From: Coniochaeta sp. PMI_546 | Lineage: Eukaryota; Ascomycota; Sordariomycetes; Coniochaetales; Coniochaetaceae | Direction: 5' to 3' | NCBI GenBank assembly: GCA_021432605.1 | Contig: MU271156.1 | Location: 1 to 64,000 of the forward strand | Length of the DNA stretch: 64,000 nt | Shown: piece by piece, positions 1 to 40,863 of the stretch | How the letters are laid out: the number at the start of each line of letters is the position of its first letter | How positions within the stretch are numbered: the first letter of the stretch is position 1 | Position numbers and translations under genes: made by a program | Notes under the pieces: model-generated | Told to the model about the DNA's origin: nothing | Databases searched by the model: none | The model's input: the letters and a program-made list of their open reading frames with translations, nothing else

Positions 1-93
1 ACCAGAGTGAAGACTGCTTGTTACACCTTAACTTACTTACCCTAAGTAACAGAACTCACCTTCTGATCCTTAGCCCGTCTTGGGATCGTTACA
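1..93 (-). repeat. Edge of an LTR, same family as 924-1315, inverted and not RIP-mutated
   Basis: Read on the minus strand, these bases match the first 93 bases of the LTRs at 924 and 7313, beginning TGTAACGATCC. All differences I see from those two copies are transitions of the RIP type, and this copy keeps ordinary CpA and TpG. The terminal dinucleotide is TG, as expected for an LTR end. The rest of the LTR, and any element attached to it, lies left of the window. It may be a younger insertion or solo LTR in older mutated DNA, since bases 94 onward are heavily mutated. Confidence 0.85.
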
Positions 94-923
94 ATATATT
101 ACGATCGACGTTTATTCGCGGTTTATTATCTAGTTTTACGTTGGTATTTTAGTTCGAATAGTACGGAACGTCTTTATATAATATATTATAGTTACGAAAA
201 TTCGAGGTTATATACCCTTTTACTTCCGATTAGATCTAGGTACCGAAACCTTCTTTTTCGTTATTATATACTATTATCTTTCGACGGCCGTAATTATAAA
301 AAGTCGGCGTTAACTTCGTTTAATACGATTTGTTAATAAATAAGGATATCAAATCGAACGCGACGTTATATTATAAGTTACTTTTTCGTATAATAATATT
401 TATTTTAATTAATTATAATTTATTAGGTACGAATAAGATTTCGATAAGCTTAACCGGTTATAAGTTTTACTATTCGATAACGAAGATTTTATTAAAAACG
501 ATTTTCTTCGAGAAGAACTATAAAACGTATAATAAGTTAATATAATACCGTTTGATATTAATTTAAACTAATTACCGGTAATCGATAATTAATTATTTCT
601 ATAATAACGTCGTTCGGTTTCTATTAATATTATCGATAATCGATAGCGACGTTTAATACGTTCTCCTTTATTCTTACGTTAGAAATCAATACCGCTTCCT
701 AACCGTCGAACTTAACCCCGTCCGAACTTAAAAAAACGTTATCGTACGAGGTTTAACCTTCGTATATAAAATATATCAAATTTAATACGGCGTAAACGTT
801 TAGTATTTCGTAATTACTTTATTTACGGGCGAAATATTAATAATATTAAGATCGAACGGTAATAGAGATCTTTATATTAAGATCGGGTATAGTTTTGGAA
901 AGTAAGGTTACTATTTGATAATA
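94..923. other. RIP-mutated DNA of unknown origin
   Basis: This stretch is AT-rich, has almost no CpA or TpG, and keeps many CpG, the pattern left by RIP. Short open frames exist (for example 330-545, plus strand) but look like chance frames in mutated DNA. I recognise no family. It is probably the left part of an older repeat into which the 924-7704 element inserted, because the target duplication TAATA ends at 923 and starts again at 7705. Confidence 0.6.
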
Positions 924-1315
924 TATAACGATCCTAAGACGGGCTAAGGATTAGAAGGTAAATTCTATTACTTAGGGTAAGTAAGTTAAGGTATAATAAG
1001 TAATCTTTATTCTAATATCGTTAAGATAAGTATCTTACTTAATAATAACCTCGATTGAATATTTAGATTGATTATTAGATAATTAAGAACTATCTATAGC
1101 GGAGTTTAGAAAGATTCTTTCCTATATACTTGTAAAGACTATGGTAATAGACGTATTAAACGTCTATCCGATCTATCGTAATAGATACGATCGATACCGA
1201 TCTTATTTATCAGTTACGTAACTTAAGGTCCCTAACCTATATATTACGATAAGCCTCGTATATATATTCCTTATCTATTAGCGGGGTACCTTCCGTCGCC
1301 TATAGGTTCGTAATA
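924..1315. repeat. Left LTR (3' LTR of the element)
   Basis: This is a direct repeat of 7313-7704, with the same length of 392 bases. Mismatches between the two look like RIP-type transitions. The ends read TATAACG and CGTAATA, consistent with an original TG...CA pair after mutation. It is flanked on the left by TAATA (919-923). Confidence 0.9.
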
Positions 1316-4300
1316 TTATCCCCCTCTTCCTTTGGCTATTGTCCCTAAGGCCTAGTACTTCTTATAAATAGTACTAATAGCCTATATAAGTTACGTCCGA
1401 AGGTTTCCCCTTTTTTATCGTTATTATATCTAACCGTAATATATAAAAGCAAAAGAAATCTTCCAAGTTATCGACTAACCGTAAAAACGCCTTGTTACGT
1501 ACTATCTTTAAATCTTTTATCGAGATACCCGAATATTCTTCCTACGAACGACTAAGTCTTACCTATCGCGCCTCGCTTAGTAATTCTTCGAGGTATTCCG
1601 AATATATTCGTAATAATCGTTTAAAATACGACGTATTTAGTCCTTCCAACGAGGATCTCGTAAGGATCGGCGATTAGTTCCGTCGCCTCGAAAAAGAAAT
1701 GGAAGCCGTCGAAATTACCTAACGAAAGACAAACGTTCGCGTATAACGTTTACGAAAACAAAAGAAAATATAATTCGAGAAAATAATACGTATTATCCGT
1801 AAAAGTATAACGAGTATAGAGGAATTAGAACGGGTCGAGAAAAAGGAAACCGATCGTAAAGTAACGAGAGTTACCGGGAATCGTCCGCCTTCTATTACGT
1901 CCTTTTCCTTTGATAACGACTTTATTTTAGGCTAAGACGTAGTTTACGGCGACGTAATATTATCCCTTTCGACTTTTAAGGTAATAATATTATTATAGTA
2001 CGGAACTTTTATAATAATTGCTAATAGTTCGTAAGATAAGCTTCCGGTTCCTACGTATTTTCCGAATCGTCGTAATTCTTCTATTTAACGTAATAAAAGT
2101 TTACGTTTCCTTCCTTTTTATACCTAAGGATCTTTTCTATTTCGTATTCTTATATTAGTTCGATTTTAATATTTATTATTAACTTCGCGTTCCTAGGTAT
2201 TAGTTCGAAAAGCGAGATATAAAATACTAGGTAAATACGTATATTCGTTAGTAGTTGGAATTTATAGTTCAAATCAAATAATTTTTTCTTGATCTTGAAC
2301 GGTCCGATTTTCTTCTAGTCTAATTTGTCGTTTGGTCGTTTTATTTTAATATTTCGTCGTACGAAGTAGATTTTATCTCCTTCTTATAAGGTTAGTCCTT
2401 TTAACCTTTTTTGGTTTACGTATCGTATTATTCGTAAGTTAAATAGTTTTATATGTCTACGAAGTCTCTTATAAAATAGTTTTATTTATTCCGCGGTATA
2501 TCTTACTTATAATAGCTCCGGATCCGACGGTATTGGTCCGTCTCCTAGTATTTCCCTTATAGTAGGCTTATAACCGTAATTGATAAAGAACGGTAAGTAT
2601 CCGTTTAACGTTTCGCTAAGTATATTATTATAAGCCTATTATACTATTAGTAACTACCTAACCTAATCATCTTGTTTTTTATTGATATATATCTTTAGAT
2701 ATTATTTAAAGGTCTAGTTCGTTCGTTTTATTTGCTTATTTGTCTACGGGTAAAACGATATCGACAACTTATATTTGACTCCGATTTATCGTATTAATAT
2801 CGTCTAGAACTTTAAAATAAATAACTTATTTCTATCGGTAACAAGCTATTTGGGTAGTTTATATTAGCTTATTACTACTTTCAAAAAGGCGTAGGTTATA
2901 TCTTCCGTTATATTTGTTTCCTTATACGGTATAAAGTACGCGTATTTGGAGAATTTATTTATAATTACCTATACGTTATCGTAAGTAACCCTAATTACGG
3001 GTTCCTTCGATATTAGTAGTTTGACGATAAAGTCTATCGTAACTATTTCCTATAGTTTCCCCGGTAGTTATATAGGTTGTAATAGCCCGTACGGCTTATA
3101 TCTATTTGACTTGGCTTTATTATACTTATCGTATTCGTTAATAACTTATTTAATTACCTTATCCAATCCCGGAAAGTCGTAAGTCCGCCGTACGCGTTCT
3201 TTAGTCTTATAGATTCCTTAGTATTTATATAACGGATATTTATAGAATTCCTTTACCAATTCTTTCTATAGTTTATCAGGTACGTATACCTTATTCCTAA
3301 ACTATAGTAAGTTATAATATGATAGAAGTATAAAGGTAATATCTTCTTTTGCTTTTTCCTTCCGATATTTCTTAATCCTTTCCGCCTATTATTTTTCGGG
3401 TTCTACGTTCTATATTATTCCGATTTATATATCGAGCTTAAGGTTTCTTTGTTAGTTAGTCCTAAGGAAGTTCGCCGAACGTATTTCCTTTTTTAGTCTT
3501 AGATCTTCTCGTCGATTAAGAACGTCCGTTCTATTATTTTTACTTCCTTTCCTATATATAATTTCGAAGTCGAAATCGGTAAGGAATTTATACTATCTGA
3601 TTTGTCGCTTATTAAGTTCTTTCGTAGAAATGAACGTAATAAGATTTTTGTAATCCGTTAAGATTTTTACTTTATATTTTATTCCTATAAGGTAATATTT
3701 CTATTCCTTAAACGCCTTAATAATAGCTATTAGTTCCTTATCTAATATATTATAGTTAAGTTCTAATCTATTTAGCTTTTTCGAGAAGAATGTTATTAGG
3801 TACAATCTCCCTTATTTATCCTTTTATCCTAACTAGTTTCCGAATACGAATTCCGACGTATCGGTTTCTATTTCGTAAAATTTCTCGGGATCCGTAATAA
3901 TTAATATTAGCTAGTTTAAGATCTTCTTCTTGAGTTTTTAGAACGCCTCTTCCTCTTTCGAAATCTATTCGAACCTTAAATCTTTCTTAGTAAAGTTGGT
4001 AAAAAGTATTACGATCTTATTATAATCCTTGATAAACTTCCGATAGAAGTTAGTAATCCTTAGAAAAGTTCGTATTCCCGTAACCGTTTCTAATACGGGC
4101 TATTCCTTAATAACTTTTAACTTATTTGGGTTTATTTCGAACTAGCTTAGTAATATAACGTAACCGAGAAATTTTATTTTTTGCTAGTAAAATTCGTATT
4201 TCTCGGGTTCGACTAATAAATTCGCGTCTTATAATACCTATAAGACGAGGTAGACGTGTTTCTTATATTATTCGAGGTCTTCCGAATAGATTAAGATATT

Positions 4301-7300
4301 ATCGAGGTACGCGACGACGAAATCGTCTAACTACTTTCGAAATACGTAGTTAATTATCTTTTGGAAAGAAGCCGGTACGTTAGCGAGCCCGAAAGGTATA
4401 ATATAATATTCGTATTATCCTAGCTTAGATCGTTATACCGTCTTCTATTTATTTCCTTCTTTAATTCGTATTAGGTTATATATTCTTTTAAGGTCTAGGG
4501 TAATAAACTATCGGGCTTTATATAGCCGATCTCTTAATTCGGATATAAAAGGTAGTAGTTTTCGATCTTTGATAATAATATTGTTAAGCTATCGATAGTC
4601 TATAACGAAACGTAACTTCCCGTTTTTCTTAAGTATAAATAGGATAGGGTATCCTACTAGTAATTATAATAGTCAAATATAACTTTTCTTTAGATTCTTA
4701 TCAATATATTCTCTTAACGTTTATAATTGTAAATCGTTAAAAGGGTAAATCTTATAAAATCCGGGTTCCTTACCTAGTTAAAAATTGATTTCGTAATCCT
4801 AACGGTTATATTTAGGTAGTCTTATCTCAAGCTCGGGTTTGAACAATTTATTATATCGATAGTATTCCTTTGGAATCGTTCGCGTCGATATAAACTAAGT
4901 TTCTATAATCGTTTCGTAGATTATTAAAGCTCTTCTAAAGTTACGTATAGGCTTTTCTTCGTAAAGTTTATTCTTTATAAAGGCTAACTCTCTTTTTAGC
5001 GTATCCTATTAAAATTAGCCTATTTTCCAATTAATTCGGGGATTATTCGTTCGTAGTTAAGGTATCCCTAATATTATACCGTACGATAAAATTTCCGTAA
5101 TATCGAACGTTATCTTTTGATTATAACTTTAGATAGTAATTTAAAAGGGCGTAGTCTTTATATTTACTAGTCCTTATCTATAATCGATAAGGTTTCTATT
5201 AATAGTTTTAAATCGGTAGGGTTCGTCTTTTTTTTTCTAAGGTAATCGTAATATATTAACGAGATTTGGCGAGATATAATTTCCTTATATTCCGTTATCT
5301 ATTATTACTTGGGTATTATTCCCTTATATATTAATCGTAATTCATAAGTATTCAATTCCCTCGGTCGTATATAAGGATCTTTCTATATTACGTCGATATA
5401 ATCCCTTTATAGTCGACGTTTATCGTTTTTTAACCGTTTTTCTAATCTTCGGAGCGAAATACCGTAATATTTAAGTTTATCCTTAGCCTTTGAAAAAGGT
5501 TCTAACGGTTCTCCGTTCTCCTCCTTTTCTATTTCCGGCTCGGGGCCTAGTAATCTATTTAAGCGTTTATTTATTTGGTCCGTTTCTTATACTAACTTTT
5601 CGACCTTTTTTTATATTTGTAACTTATAGCCCCGGTAATTCGCTAAGTACGTATTAACTTACGCGTTAATACGGTATTATTATATTTAGAACTCTTCGGT
5701 CGATTTTCTTCCCGTCGTAGTTTATATTACGATTTCTAATACCGAGTATCCTAATCGTCCCGTTTGTCTTACCGAGTTCTCGGGTAGGTAAATAGCTTAT
5801 ATTTGGTTCCTATTTTCGATTCTTCGTCTAGGTTCCGTTATTATTAAGAACTCTTATCCCGTTAGGTTAAGTTATAATTATATAGTTCCGGGCGGCGTTA
5901 GTAATAGGTATTATCCGTTCTTATATACTTCCTCGTATCTTTCGATATCTTTAAGTTTATAAAGGTAAAGTATCGGTTTAGTTATTAGTATTCGTACTAG
6001 TATCTATTTGTAATCTAGTTTTTCCTATATATATTAAATATAACGGTAGAAAACGTACGAATTCTACGAAATCTAGTTATAGTAGACCGAGTTAATATAA
6101 ACCGACTCGTAATCTTTATATAAAGGTATTCGTTTTTCTTCGATTTCGTCCTATTCTCGATCTAATAGGTTAACTAGATACGTTACGTCCGTAATATCGT
6201 ATCTTAATATTATTACTAAATCGACTTCTTTTCCCGGTAGTTTAAGAAATACCTTATATTGTTATTCTCTACGTATTATTACGATAGCGTAAGATTCTCT
6301 ATCCTTTGTTACCGCCTAAACTTTGTTTTCGGGGACTAGTTTCTAAGCTTTTTTAAATTATCGATATTTATTAGCGAAATATCCTTACTTACCGTAATTA
6401 AAATATTTCTTGTTTTTTTTAAAATTGTCCTTCCGGGTAACGTCCAATTTTATTAATCCAAAGTAATTATTATAGGCGGTAAACCTCTTTTGGCTAATAT
6501 TCGTAATATTATTATTATTAGACCGTCTTTATATAACTCCTTTTCGTTTCTTTTCCAACTATCGTTTATATAATCGATTATCGATTAGGATAGCTTATAT
6601 AACGTATTTATAGAGAGTTTTGGGCCTATCGGTCTTATTAAGTTCGTCCTTAACGTTATTACGAAGTCTTCCGTAGAATTAAATTATAAAAGCCGTTTCC
6701 CCTAAATCGAATTTCGTAAAAAAGCGTTTGAATTCGGCCGTATAGGTTCTTACCGATCCTTTTTACCTTAGGTTTATCAACTATCGTTCGGCCGTTCGTA
6801 TCTTATTAGGACTTCCGAATATCTCGCGGAATTTCTCTTAGAATTTATCGAGACTATTGAATAGTACTTTAGTTTCGGGTTTACGATCGTTAGTAATATT
6901 ATCTATCTAATCGCGTAACGTTAGTTCGTACTATTCCGTAACTCTTCCCCTTAATATTCTTATTACGTATATTACCTTTTCGTACTCGTAAACGAAAACC
7001 GCCTTATTAATCGAAAGGTACGTATTAGTTTGGGTAATAAAGGCTTATAACCTTTCGCGGTTCCCGTCGTAAGGTTCCGGCCGCGGGGCTTTGATCTTGG
7101 CCGTTCGTTCCGTAGTCTTAGGGTCGTTTTTAGGTTCCGCCGATCTAGATTTCAATTCTTTATATTCGTTCTTCAACTTTTCCAATTCAACTCCGAACTT
7201 AATAACCTACTAAATAAGTTCTTCTTTAGATATAGTTGTAACGGTTCCTTTTATCGATATAATTATTAGCTATTTGGTATAAGGTTAACTTACCGAATAG

Positions 7301-7312
7301 GAGTAATCAAAA

Positions 7313-7704
7313 TATAACGATCCTAAGACGGGTTAAGGATTAGAAGGTAAGTTTTATTATTTAGGGTAAGTAAGTTAAGGTATAACAAGTAGTTTTCATT
7401 CTAATATCGTTAAGATAAGTATCTTACTTAATAATAATCTCGATTGAATACTTAGATTGATTATTAGGTAATTAAGAATTATTTATAACGGAGTCTAAAG
7501 AAACTCTTTCCTATATACTTGTAAAGATTATAGTAATAGATATATTAGACGTCTATCCGATCTATCGTAATAAATACGATCGATACCGATCTTATCTATC
7601 AGTTACGTAACTTGAGGTCCCTGACTTATATATTACGATAAGCTTCGTATATATATTCCTTATCTATTGGCGGGGTACCTTCCGTCGCCTATAAGTTCGT
7701 AATA
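7313..7704. repeat. Right LTR (5' LTR of the element)
   Basis: This is a direct repeat of 924-1315, followed by the second copy of the TAATA target duplication at 7705-7709. Because the element is coded on the minus strand, this is its promoter-side LTR. It is mutated as heavily as the left copy, at partly different sites. Confidence 0.9.
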
Positions 7705-7709
7705 TAATA

Positions 7710-9690
7710 CTTGATATATAACTAATATTATCGATTATAAGAATATTTTCTTTATCTTAGCTATATTAGCTTGTTCGAAAAGGTAAAATAAATAGACCGT
7801 ATTATATTACTTTATATCTATATACTTATCTTTCGTATAAAGTTTACCAACTTTATAATATTATAAAATAATTATACGATCCGTAAATAAAAGGGAAAGG
7901 ACTATATAATAAATAACAAACCTTTTGTCTTTTATTATCTATATCTTATAGTAATAATCCCGGATTTTAAAATAATAGTCGAAAGCGAAAAATAATAGAA
8001 AGTATAGGTTATCGTCGAATAAAATAATATCGATTTGGAAGAATATTTACTAACGATAACGATATAGATTTACGATTTACTTATTCGATTATTCGGCGGT
8101 ATTTTTCAGATAGTTCCTATTGCCTAATTGATAACGCCGTATATTAATTAATATCGTAAGTTCCGGATCGAACTAGCGTATTACGTATACGAAAAGCGAG
8201 AATTATAGTTAGAAGAATACGGACGAGATATATTAAGTATTAATAATATCCGTATATTTTTTAATCGGTTCGGGATTAATATTGATATTAAAAACGATAT
8301 TATATTAGAATAAAAGAGAGATTAAAGCCAAACGAATATAATTTATCAAAGTAATAAAAATAAACTTATTATCAAATAAAAGAATTGAATATTATTAAAA
8401 CTTAAATATCGTTAGATAACCTTATACGGCTTCGTTTTTATATTATACGTCGAATATTTATTTCGAAAAGGATTTCGACTTTAAGATTATTAATATTCTT
8501 AACCGTTTGATTTCGGATATCTAACTTTTCGACTTTATCGTAATATTGATTATTTTCGAATATATTTATAAAAGACTTAGAAAAGTCGTCGTTTTCGAAA
8601 AGAAATTTGATATTGGTCGAAAGGTTTAGTTTTATTTTAACTAGTATCGATAAATAAAATTTAAGTTTAATCGGTTTCTCGTTATCGGATTTATTTTTAT
8701 ATATTTGTTCCTTTTTAATCAAAAGTTATATAGATAATTCGATATCGGATAATTCGTTTTCGTAATCGGACGCGGTACGATATTTCCTTTTAGCTTTTTT
8801 ATAAGGTAGTTTAGTTTTAGGTTTTTCGATAAGAAATTGTTCTTCGGTATTAAAGATAAGATAAAACTTATACGTATCGCAAGGGGTATTAGGACTAGTT
8901 AGATAAAACTCGTTTAGGATTTATTTAAATATAAACGATCTTAAAAGCCTTTGAATAGGAATAAAAGTATTGAATCTTCGTTAATTAATATTGACCGCCG
9001 TAATTATAAAGAATTTATAATTTTGGAAGTCCGGGTATTAGGTATAGACGCGGAATTGGAAAAGGATTTGGTTAGTAAAAACTTCGTACGACGAAAATTA
9101 AATTGTAAGCGGTAATTGTAAAGGTCCGATCGGTTGGAGTTTTTCGATCGATCTAAACTTCTCGAGTTTATACGTATCCTAATTAAATATATATACCGTT
9201 CTAAAGTAAAACGTTAGAAATATCGTAACTTTAGGCCGTTTTGGTAAAATCCGTATATTTTTAGAAGTTTCAATACGAGCTTATATTATAATATTCGTTA
9301 TTTTAATAAGGTTAATCTTACGTTTAGAAAGCTTTTAAAGAGGTACACGGGTTATACGATTAGTTAAGACGACGAATACTTAAGGAAGGCCGAGACGTAA
9401 ACAATTTGGCGAGTTTATAAGGTTAATAACCTTAGGCGGCGGGGAAGTTATCGTTAAAGTATAATACTTGGTTACTATTATAAAAGGATAAATAAAATCA
9501 GATAATTTTGTACGAGATCGATTAAATATATACGAGGATCTATAGGGTCTTAAGGTTTATAATTAGTATACCGTTTATTTATATATCGGTCTATATTAAT
9601 ATAATTAACGTTATATTATAAAGCCGTAGATCTATATTATAAAAGTATATACGCCCTTAGCCAATTGGTATAAGTATAGAGGTCGGATTT
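7710..9690. other. RIP-mutated DNA of unknown origin, right part of the repeat island
   Basis: The composition matches 94-923: AT-rich, CpA/TpG-poor, CpG kept. The longest open frame is 8438-8722 on the minus strand, rich in Lys, Asn and Ile, which is what mutated DNA of this composition gives. I recognise no protein family. The mutation pattern stops sharply near 9,690, and from there normal single-copy-like sequence leads into the first gene. This is probably the other half of the older repeat interrupted by the retrotransposon. Confidence 0.6.
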
Positions 9691-36743: not shown

Positions 36744-39110
36744 TCACCCATAGCCCCTCCGCCCATAACCTCCATACCTCCTGCCATTTCCGTTCATGTT
36801 TATCCCGCCTCCATTCGCCAACGCAGGGATCATCACTGGCGGCACTCTCTTCTTTGGCGGTGGCAGGCTGTTAACCGCCTCCCACATCTCCATGATTCCC
36901 GCCCGCCGGGCCGGTAGCATGCTGTACTGCAAAGAGTAGAGGTTCTTCCTGTTGATCGGCGGAACAAACTTGCCGGTGAGCAGGCAGAGAAGCACCCGCG
37001 GAGAGAGGTAGTGCTTGCGGATGCGTGAGGCCATCTGGAAGTACTGGTGGAACATTGCCCGGAAGGATAAGGGTATCGGCTGGCGGAAGATATTAGTATC
37101 CGTTCGCAAGTGGTCTGGGAAAGAGAATGCTCACCTTGAGGTATATTACAGAGGTGTTAGGTTGGTGGTGGGAAGAAGCAATCGCTAGTCTAGTATCCGG
37201 GGTATCTCGAAGTTCAAAACGAATGCCCCCTTATGCCATTAGTATAAATATCACATAGCAAAAGTGGCAGAAAGACATACCAGGCAACCTCCTAGGGTCT
37301 TTGACCCTCAGCATAAGTGCAAACAACGGGAAGTGATTCAAGCACGAAAGCAGCGTGTCAAAAACAGCCTTGATCGATATGATAATCATGCGCGCAAACG
37401 CGAAATTGAGATAAAACACCACCACCGTTGGGAGCAGGAAAAACAGTAGAGTGAACAGGATGGTGCCCACGAGAAGCTGGTCGAGATCGTAGTCGCACGA
37501 GTCGATACGGTTGCGGAGCACGTTGTGCTTTTTACCGCGGAAGAGGTGGAAGAGCGAAATCAGGATGTTGAGCTGCCAGTGGTAGATGCGCGCCGAGGCG
37601 AGGTAGAAGGAGTAGATGTGCACCGTCAGGATGGAGAGGAGGTCGGACAACAGAGCGATCGGCATACTGGCGCCCGCGAAACTGGAGAAGCCGAGGAAGA
37701 GGATGATTTGGGGGAGGGCTGGGCGGAGAGTCGCAATGCAACCTGTTCATAGTTAGCCACGTAACGGTAAGAAGTCTTGAAAGCAGACATACTCGACCAG
37801 TAATCAATGACCCAGAGAAACAGGTCACCAAGAAACACAGCAAGCTCCTTGTTGAGCTTAAGACCGGCTGGCCAACCCATAAGCCACGAAATGCTTCTCT
37901 GCAGCGCCTCGACCGTGAACTTGGTCAGAATCAAACTGATCTGGTCAGCAACCCAGCCCGCGTTGTCAATGATGTACGATCCGAGAGCCATGCCGATAAT
38001 CACGTCATTGGCCACAAGCCACAGGCTGTTGTAGAACCGTATGTAGTCCGGATGGCTCGTCGTCACACTCTCCCAGTCGTTCTTCCGCTGCCGCAGCGTG
38101 ACATACTGCATCGGCCAGTAGCAGAACTGTTGGAGCCGTATCTCAACCTGCTGAGCGGTAGCCGAGATGTCCTTGAGTGCCGCATGGCGAGGTGTCGGCC
38201 GCCATTCCAGGACCGTAAGGAACATTTCGGCCACTATTCGGTGCGACATGAGTGCAATCACAAACCCTCTTGTGATGATAGGGAAGATATAGAGTGTGAT
38301 CATCTCCCAAATCCAGAAGAGCGCAATGTCCCTCATAGTCGTGGCCGATTCCACCACTCGCTCAGACACACTCAGGCTTCGTTTTGGCCGTGTCCCAATC
38401 CTGGACACATTCTTTTGAAGGAGCTGTTCCAGTTCCCAAGCCCAGTTGATCTGGTTGACGATCTTGGCCAAAGCCTTCTCCTTGGCAGACGGCACACGTT
38501 TGATAATGGAGTGCAACTTTATCTTTTCAACGAGTTTCTGCTGCTTCTCCTTCTTCAACCGCTCTTGCTTCTCTTCCTCCTCCTCCAGACCGTCCTGCGG
38601 CTCCAGCCTCGAATCGCCATGTTTGTCGTCGAGGGCCAAGGCAATCGGGTTCAGAGAGATGTACTGCATCCTTTCAGGATGCGGTCTTTCGAAAAGAACG
38701 ACCTGGATATTAGAGGCTCGAGCGCAGGTAACGACCGGCGTCTTGTTACTGGGACCCGTGGTCACGCGCACCCACGAGGAGTCAACTTCGACTGAGTCAG
38801 GGACATTGGCCACCCCCAAGATATGCATAGACGACTGCCCGCATAGCTCGTAGATCCTATTGACTGGATGGGGCGCATTCCGGAAGAGTGTGCCGATTTT
38901 CAGCGCAGTATCAACATTGCGCGGCTGCTACCATGTTAGTCGCCCGTCGCTGTAACGGTCATAGGAGGATCCTACCTCAACTTCTTCCAGTATAGCCACA
39001 ACAAAGACATCCGAGGCAGAATTCCTCCAGCCTACTACGACGCCCCGGAGGTCTGATCTTGGCAGGTCCGTCGGCCAGAATATACGCATCAGCCCATCAT
39101 GCTCGGGCAT
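36744..39110 (-). CDS. gpi1: GPI1 / PIG-Q, subunit of the GPI-GlcNAc transferase
   Basis: This is an ER membrane subunit of the complex that adds GlcNAc to phosphatidylinositol, the first step of GPI anchor synthesis. Five exons, 39110-38976, 38927-37793, 37742-37281, 37229-37135 and 37079-36744, give about 720 residues. Introns are 48, 50, 51, 55 bases, all GT-AG with CTAAC/CTAAT branches. Exon 2's start could be three bases later (alternative AG). Family landmarks are MRIFWPTDLP at the N-terminus, the long helical region with several transmembrane spans (LFWIWEMITLYIFPIITRGF, IYHWQLNILISLFHLFRGKK), RLPGGIRFEL and KPIPLSFRAMFHQYF. The last 25 residues are Gly/Asn/Arg-rich (GRRYGGYGRRGYG), unusual for a membrane protein. 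The start may be the ATG at 39110 or the in-frame ATG at 39089, which overlaps the stop of the gene before it. Confidence 0.93.
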
Positions 39111-39550
39111 GACAGACAGTGGAAGTTCGTAATAGCTCTCAGAACGACCCTCTCCGCCTCAACTGCTCCCTGGCCGATATGCCGAAGCCGGGCGATCGGG
39201 GGTGCTGCACGCGTGTAGCTTATTAGTGCGGATTCGAGGTGTTTGAACGGGTATGGTCGTACCAGCTTTGCTTCCCTCGTCGCGAGACGTTCGACAGGTA
39301 TGGCGATGAAGAGAAACGCCAATGTGAGGGCGCCAAATCCCTTAGCGGCTCGTGTCTGTAGCAGGTAAGATTAGGGTGGGATGGTCAAGACGGCGTGGTC
39401 CGTACGCCGAGACAAGCAGGGCAAACTTACAACGACCCCGTGGTCCCAGGCAAAGATGGCAAGCTCGTAGAGGCGTGTGACCAGATCCCATCGGGCGGTG
39501 ATGTAGCCAGCTACGAAGATACCGAGGGTGAGGACGGAGAAAGGGTGCAT
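39089..39550 (-). CDS. Small two-helix membrane protein, tightly linked to GPI1
   Basis: I do not recognise the family. Exon 1 is 39550-39431 and exon 2 begins at 39355, after a 75-base intron (GTAAGT, CCCTAAT branch, CTACAG). Read straight through, it stops at 39089 and gives 128 residues. A second plausible 58-base intron (39262-39205: GTACGA, CACTAATA, GTGCAG) would give a stop at 39139 and about 93 residues. The N-terminus starts MHPFSVLTLGIFVAGYITARW, one hydrophobic segment; a second is GFGALTLAFLFIAIPVERL. Between them is an amphipathic stretch. Both segments and the codon use look like a real protein. In the first model the frame overlaps GPI1 by 22 bases; in the second it ends 28 bases before it. 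A shared transcript, or a fused gene, seems likely. Confidence 0.65.
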
Positions 39551-40406
39551 AGAATCAGGCTTGGGCTATGACATGAGCATTCCGGAGAAGATGTAGCTTG
39601 ACTTGAAATTGCCTTGGCGGGCGGTTGACCTGGCGGCGAGGGTTGGATGGAGGGGATTGAAGCTCGGTTGGCAGAGAATGACGAGAATATCGTGGTAAAA
39701 GGCACAGTTCAGCAAGTCGCCGACATGCAGGAAAGAATGAAGCTAATGTCGTCGCTGTCAGAGATGTGATTGGTGCGCAAGGGCCGTAGCGGTCGAAATG
39801 ATAGCATGTAATCTGGGATACATCAGAGACAAGGTCGATCAACGGGACCCCCTGCTTGCAAATGCCGTGGGCAAAAAGTCTCGGCCAGCCGATTGGCGCT
39901 AAAGAGAGGTAAACACGCTTGGCCTTTCTGGTGTTTGTGGAGGGTCGCACCTTCCCGCGCAGGTGCTACATAGTACACAGCGGTAGTCACGTGGCATGAG
40001 CCGAAGTTCAGTTTGATCAGTCAGTAAAGATACAGATTAGACCCTGGAAGCAGACGATGGAGACCTTTGGACGTGATGCAAGGCTTCCATCGGAGGGGAG
40101 ATCACAACAGTTCGAGATACTATTGACATCATGTGCAGTAATTCCTGAATAGATCCATGTCCGCAGTTGTGTAGCAGGCCAACTGGACTTGAGAAGGCAA
40201 AATGTCAACGTCGCCAACACCGATAATGCGAGTAGAGAGAACCAACGCCAGACCACCCAAACCGATCATGTTAAATAATAAAAAGACATGAGTACTGTGG
40301 TATGCATCAGGACAGGGTGGTTCAAGATCGTGACATCATGGGTCCATGAGTCAAAATAGTCTGATATTGCAACTCTGTTCGCCGGTTAGCTTGGGCGACC
40401 AGACAC
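39551..40406. other. Intergenic region between the small membrane gene and MDM35
   Basis: No gene is supported. A minus-strand frame near 40,017-40,256 begins with a hydrophobic stretch but has no ATG in that frame and no recognisable family. This region should hold the promoter that serves the small membrane gene and probably GPI1. Confidence 0.5.
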
Positions 40407-40863
40407 TCAGGATCCAAACCACGAGTCCAGAAGCGACCTACATTTGCGCCCCAAGTACACAGCATCATTTTCCTTGTTGTCTTCTCGGGCTTCATCTAAC
40501 AGCTTGTCGATGCCTCGCTGCTTGAGTGCCACCTATGCCAGTCGCAGTGAGTTCGTGCAGTGCGGACACCGGCGTTATGATCGAGGGAAGTACATACACC
40601 CAAGCATTTTTGATAGTCTTTGAACAGAGTAGCACACTCGTTATTTTCACTGGAAGCTGCACCTCGTAGGTATTCTGCATCATCATGAGCAGTTGTTTCA
40701 ACGCGCGAGCTACCCTAGGTAACCTACTTTCACTGTACCATTTCAGGAAACAGGTGTCATATTTTCTGCACAAATATCAGTTTCTTCCAATTTGCAATGC
40801 TAAAGGATAAGATGGCACGCACTCCTTGACTTCGTTGCACTCAGGCGCAAGAGATGCAGACAT
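40407..40863 (-). CDS. mdm35: Mdm35, twin CX9C protein of the mitochondrial intermembrane space
   Basis: Mdm35 (TRIAP1 in animals) binds Ups1/PRELI-type lipid transfer proteins in the intermembrane space and is needed for phosphatidic acid transport. Four small exons, 40863-40823, 40765-40728, 40674-40598 and 40532-40407, give 93 residues. Introns are 57, 53 and 65 bases, all GT-AG. The protein begins MSASLAPECNEVKEKYDTCF and continues LKWYSEKYLRG, then CATLFKDYQKCLG and ALKQRGIDKLLDEAREDNKE. Both CX9C pairs are present (C9 with C19, and CATLFKDYQKC), which form the two disulphides of the helical hairpin. The exact family match across all junctions supports this model strongly. The last ten residues after the NKEND segment are less conserved, and another intron there is possible. 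Confidence 0.92.

Follow-up and report, generated by a model that had tools for sequence, protein, structure and literature searches.

In animals, PIG-Y and PreY come from one bicistronic mRNA. In green algae, bicistronic loci are reported to combine a weak initiation context at ORF1 with a depletion of AUGs ahead of ORF2, and mutational tests accompany that description (PMC11892635). Among fungi, 67 potential polycistronic transcripts are described for Cordyceps militaris (PMC6351555), and a long-read study whose criteria were applied to Neurospora crassa reports no polycistronic transcripts (PMC4503453). Extensive leaky scanning has been reported for Neurospora, and fungal ribosomal-protein genes are described as preferring A at positions -3 to -1 (PMC7049704). 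Here we describe a locus of Coniochaeta sp. PMI_546 that bears on these systems, at which a gene for a small, putative membrane protein is followed closely by GPI1.

The window, by which we mean the whole stretch of 64,000 nucleotides analysed, is part of a contig of 644,747 bases (C14) in a 33.5-Mb genome, and all genes discussed lie on its minus strand (Table). An AT-rich block occupies its beginning, with a GC content of 31% in positions 1-8000 as against 50–58% beyond 12 kb. The GPI1 protein as read here is 100% identical to that of the Coniochaeta sp. PMI_546 record P0121 and matches PF05024 at 376.1 bits against a cut-off of 22.2, which places it in the GPI1/PIG-Q family; a sequence search of the PDB (E up to 1) returned two matches for it, no Gpi1 among them. 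Both ORFs and the gap between them span 2467 nt after splicing.

The first-pass annotation had let the upstream frame run, with one intron, into a TGA (39091-39089) whose final A also opens an in-frame GPI1 ATG, giving TGATG, and had noted another ATG in the GPI1 frame at 39110. Read on the minus strand, both features are present. The one-intron model itself (128 aa, stop 39089) was rejected, as the listed relatives have the C-terminus produced by two introns. Since the two-intron protein of 92 aa equals P0001 exactly over its full length and agrees with the listed relatives, TGATG is not the stop of the small gene; in the spliced mRNA it closes the frame ATG-ATG-GGC-TGA inside the start of GPI1. 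With the second intron (39262-39205), which the same annotation had considered as an alternative, the upstream stop falls at 39141-39139, exactly 28 bases from GPI1, as it had stated. For GPI1 itself, 88 of 159 rows fit a pattern in which an unfused protein starts directly ahead of the MRxFWP motif, 80 of these 88 with MP, which supports the conserved ATG at 39110 as the start.

Table. Features of the small gene–GPI1 locus and its upstream neighbour, in window coordinates.
Feature	Position	Strand	Remarks
Small gene, coding exon 1	39431..39550	-	ATG 39550-39548, U at -3
Small gene, intron 1, 75 nt	39356..39430	-	spliced protein equals P0001
Small gene, coding exon 2	39263..39355	-	gene model
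Small gene, intron 2, 58 nt	39205..39262	-	excision yields conserved C-terminus SAREQLRRRGSF
Small gene, coding exon 3	39139..39204	-	stop TGA 39141-39139
Inter-ORF gap, 28 nt	39111..39138	-	between small-gene stop and GPI1 ATG
GPI1 (PF05024), 719 aa, 5 exons	36744..39110	-	ATG 39110, stop 36746-36744
GPI1 introns	38975-38925, 37792-37743, 37280-37230, 37134-37080	-	gene model
Second in-frame GPI1 ATG	39089	-	read from sequence
Overlapping 3-codon frame ATG-ATG-GGC-TGA	39089..39100	-	its end is TGATG
Possible alternative intron, 161 nt	39102..39262	-	in-frame join of small protein to HDGLMR of GPI1
Possible 4-codon upstream ORF (MLMS, TAG)	39566..39580	-	ends 15 nt before small ATG
MDM35-like gene (PF05254, 93-aa model)	40407..40863	-	856 nt upstream of small gene

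A search with the small protein finds 1101 related clusters at E up to 1; among the best 120 of these, 111 are exactly 92 aa long, with an end of their own. Mean column identity over 63 aligned members is 81%, and their C-terminus is nearly invariant. An AlphaFold model (pLDDT 88.1, pTM 0.47) has long helices at residues 3-36 and 39-71 and a short one at the C-terminus. Comparison with Pfam gave no convincing family for the protein, and 63 relatives searched at E up to 10 gave scattered weak matches, the best at 0.021; the PDB yielded one weak match by sequence (E 1.6) and no match to the model by fold. Scans of viral and prokaryote contigs with the small protein gave no relative, nor any fungal nucleotide sequence beyond this genome; among the genome contigs 70 stretches matched a pattern, none of which was confirmed.

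Two known small subunits were considered and rejected. Neither the protein nor any of 63 relatives matches the PIG-Y/Eri1 family PF15159 or the DPM3 family PF08285, and DPM3 was found on contig C13. The sole reported PIG-Y match of the genome (88.7 bits) is on contig C4, where the domain (C4:1911512-1911745; L003:1480-2781, minus strand) forms the C-terminal end of a serine-rich open frame of 433 aa; animal PIG-Y, at about 71 aa, is much shorter. The parallel with animal PIG-Y that had been drawn for this locus thus holds as an analogy and does not extend to the identity of the protein. Many 92-aa records carry the name 'phosphatidylinositol glycan, class Q', which probably came over to them from fused records. 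By association, through its 81% identity and its linkage to GPI1, a role for the small protein in GPI-anchor synthesis at the ER is plausible.

Is the pair conserved? When the best 120 of 1101 small-protein clusters were set against 159 GPI1 rows, the longest contigs were equal in nucleotide length for 12 small/GPI1 pairs. Three of these pairs come from short 'lgn' contigs (2939, 3424 and 2704 nt); in each, both ORFs are intact and GPI1 is unfused. The nine others, mostly long contigs, for which equal length means that both genes share a contig and not that they are adjacent, belong to Coniochaeta hoffmannii, Thozetella, Corynascus, Hypoxylon, Echria, Clarireedia, Bisporella and Golovinomyces, plus one jgi contig. 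From the genus names we take Coniochaeta, Thozetella, Corynascus, Hypoxylon and Echria to be Sordariomycetes, and Clarireedia, Bisporella, Golovinomyces and also Diplocarpon to be Leotiomycetes. In Corynascus (8286/8287) and Golovinomyces (01640/01639) the small gene and GPI1 carry locus tags that follow directly on one another, and in Hymenoscyphus albidus their tags differ by two. Small gene and GPI1 are linked in two fungal classes, Sordariomycetes and Leotiomycetes; the small protein is also present in Dothideomycetes and Eurotiomycetes. Neurospora has the pair as well, in a fused record of N. tetrasperma (P0155).

The MDM35-like (UPF0203) gene is an upstream neighbour on the same strand. 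Its end is separated from the small gene by 856 nt, which leaves this neighbour room for signals of its own, unlike GPI1. An MDM35-like protein also occurs in 13 of 159 GPI1 records (12 found by pattern, and P0276); the order MDM35-small gene-GPI1 recurs in Sordariomycetes and Diplocarpon, and P0156, one of the 13 MDM35 fusions, skips the small protein.

Do the two ORFs share one mRNA? P0001 is represented by an 'lgn' ORF only, the contigs being no longer than 3122 nt. We take 'lgn' entries to be assembled read archives in which ORFs are called regardless of introns, a view in keeping with P0211 and related entries, whose frames continue through introns. On that assumption, P0001, intact and identical while the gene here has two introns, points to spliced RNA (cDNA). 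By their longest contig, 22 of the 46 small-protein 'lgn' clusters fall between 2467 and 4000 nt, with 13 shorter and 11 longer. The three short contigs of equal length compare with 0.16–0.22 expected (P about 0.001; 46 x 17 'lgn' rows, jittered lengths); they may be merged overlapping transcripts, or genomic sequence from species without these introns, and would then show linkage only. Some GPI1 ORFs lie on long contigs without intron 1, and full-length ORFs occur also on contigs of 5–11 kb. Taken together, this indirect evidence makes one shared mRNA for both ORFs probable. Among the matches listed, no paper title dealt with a dicistronic mRNA of the small gene and GPI1. A dicistronic mRNA read by reinitiation had been proposed in the first-pass annotation: its dicistronic half is supported, short of proof, and its stop-start half is not, given that ORF1 ends 28 nt before GPI1.

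How would ribosomes reach GPI1 on such an mRNA? If they scan through ORF1 to GPI1, AUGs are expected to be avoided within ORF1. In the best 120 of 1101 small proteins, 118 have no methionine after the first, and internal methionine fills 2 of 10,919 cells over the 91 columns that follow the first Met, a depletion of in-frame AUGs. Even in 20 variable hydrophobic columns the count for these 120 is 0 of 2,400, and comparable columns of GPI1 hold 847 Met in 14,950 (5.7%; 151 of 159 rows). The Met-poorest stretch of 91 columns in GPI1 has 0.63%, against 0.018% in the small protein, and random draws of GPI1 columns were never as low in Met in 20,000 trials; the rows are those nearest to a Met-free query. 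As they are also related by descent and GPI1 is the single control protein, the size of the effect counts for more than the P value.

AUG counts over all frames were taken from this species. Between the two starts there is one other AUG, whose 24-codon frame closes well before GPI1. After its first AUG, ORF1 has 1 AUG in all frames against 2.9 expected from composition, a difference that in one gene is not significant by itself, and GPI1 has 38 against 30.3; measured against synonymous codon resampling, ORF1 of this species showed no out-of-frame deficit (1 against 0.92 expected). The base at -3 is U for the small gene, G for GPI1 and A for MDM35 in this species, so that the first AUG here has a weak context, judged on U at -3 alone.

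The near-absence of internal in-frame AUGs favours leaky scanning over termination-coupled reinitiation. On balance we consider it more likely than not that both ORFs are transcribed as one dicistronic unit and that the second, GPI1, is translated by leaky scanning. A single promoter upstream of 39550 would drive both genes, and the spliced mRNA would carry the 92-codon ORF for a predicted two-helix membrane protein, then 28 nt, then the 719-codon GPI1 ORF. Part of the ribosomes would start at the first AUG, where the base at -3 is U, and produce the small protein; the rest would scan on, meet almost no AUG and start at the GPI1 AUG at 39110. The small protein may act together with GPI1, or at least in the membrane where GPI1 works.

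Could the two genes instead be separate, overlapping transcription units, with the start sites of GPI1 inside the small gene or just past its AUG? We regard this as unlikely. If GPI1 mRNAs began shortly after the small AUG, the small ORF would serve as GPI1 leader and methionine would be depleted there too; because the depletion spans all 91 columns after the first Met, the GPI1 start sites would need to lie close to that AUG. The joined contigs could be assemblies of overlapping transcripts, or genomic, and for N. crassa a long-read survey reported no polycistronic units (PMC4503453), although it might have missed the pair if the gene was annotated as fused or the small gene was absent. Against separate units stands the recurrence of two-ORF matches of equal size in three short 'lgn' contigs.

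Reinitiation on a dicistronic mRNA, with GPI1 reached after the 92-codon ORF, the 4-codon upstream ORF (39580) or the internal 24-codon ORF, appears to us improbable. The gap of 28 nt is short, as reinitiation would have it, and in yeast the fungal intergenic element IGG6 is reported to support reinitiation once a full-length ORF has been translated (PMC10352335). The two short ORFs are also placed suitably, one stopping 15 nt short of the small AUG and the other well ahead of GPI1, and the MLMS ORF (39566-39580) could let ribosomes that reinitiate bypass the small ORF and reach GPI1. Reinitiation after 92 codons gives no cause for a purge of AUGs, yet those in frame are nearly absent, and the TGATG stop-start that had suggested it comes from the rejected gene model.

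A fused gene had also been suggested, on the ground that the GPI1 frame stays open above its ATG. A TGA at 39161-39159 closes the frame upstream, which does leave it open for 16 codons above 39110 and for 23 above 39089, and the motif of the small protein is joined to GPI1 in 62 of 159 GPI1 records, that of Coniochaeta sp. PMI_546 included. The junctions of these records are mutually incompatible. A rough sorting by pattern of the 59 that are readable gave 16 that run directly into (H/N)DGLM, 12 joined after REQLRR and 8 after HPR; 19 keep the GPI1 initiator and 4 are of other kinds. P0121 needs a skip of 13 nt (39148-39136) past the stop codon, and the exons so joined give the first 120 residues of P0121; to our knowledge, an intron of 13 nt would be far below the known limits. 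Among 21 GPI1 representatives that have 'lgn' sequence, no fusion occurs; 17 of them are 'lgn' only, P0278 is without its N-terminus, and a few could be of genomic origin. The fused models are probably artefacts of annotation. A join from 39262 to 39102, of the type seen in 16 of the 59 readable fused records, has GT-AG ends, is in frame and gives the junction of the C. ligniaria record P0122, so a minor fused isoform through it is possible. That splicing of the exon 2 donor at 39262 to the AG at 39102, always or as an isoform, explains the locus is nevertheless very improbable, in view of the incompatible junctions, the 13-nt skip, the unfused 'lgn' representatives and the 92-aa length of 111 of the best 120 relatives.

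If the dicistronic reading with leaky scanning is true, ascomycetes, where one Neurospora long-read survey reported no such units, have a conserved dicistronic nuclear gene; a very conserved family of small membrane proteins without a Pfam match would point, by association, to GPI-anchor synthesis; and the doubtful N-terminal extension on many GPI1 records would be accounted for. A bolder version, possible to our mind but doubtful, is that an ancient two-protein mRNA of Pezizomycotina ties GPI1 to a new small protein that serves the GPI-GlcNAc transferase as subunit or regulator; how leaky the first AUG is would set the amounts of both, and a spliced fusion of the two might occasionally arise.

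How does this locus compare with the systems described before? Like the leaky-scanning loci reported for green algae, it has a short ORF1, a poor AUG context, a depletion of AUGs and a conserved gene pair; unlike those mutation-tested loci, it is fungal and known from sequence comparison, its depletion is seen mainly as loss of methionine from the protein, and its all-frame counts come from one species (PMC11892635). As described for Sloth1/Sloth2 of Drosophila, a small membrane protein would be made from a first AUG that is not optimal, and the second ORF follows closely, but the Sloth proteins are paralogues that act in mitochondrial complex III assembly, whereas ORF2 here encodes a 719-aa enzyme subunit (PMC9681215). 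Tandem genes in one transcript recall the polycistronic transcripts reported for Agaricomycetes; the genes there are described as also independently transcribed, with conservation declining outside the class, and the pair studied here is found in two ascomycete classes (PMC4503453). With the animal PIG-Y/PreY mRNA it has in common that an mRNA with two ORFs would supply one subunit of GPI-GlcNAc transferase; at the Coniochaeta locus, however, that subunit is GPI1/PIG-Q, encoded by ORF2, and the PIG-Y domain, distinct from the small protein, lies elsewhere in the genome.
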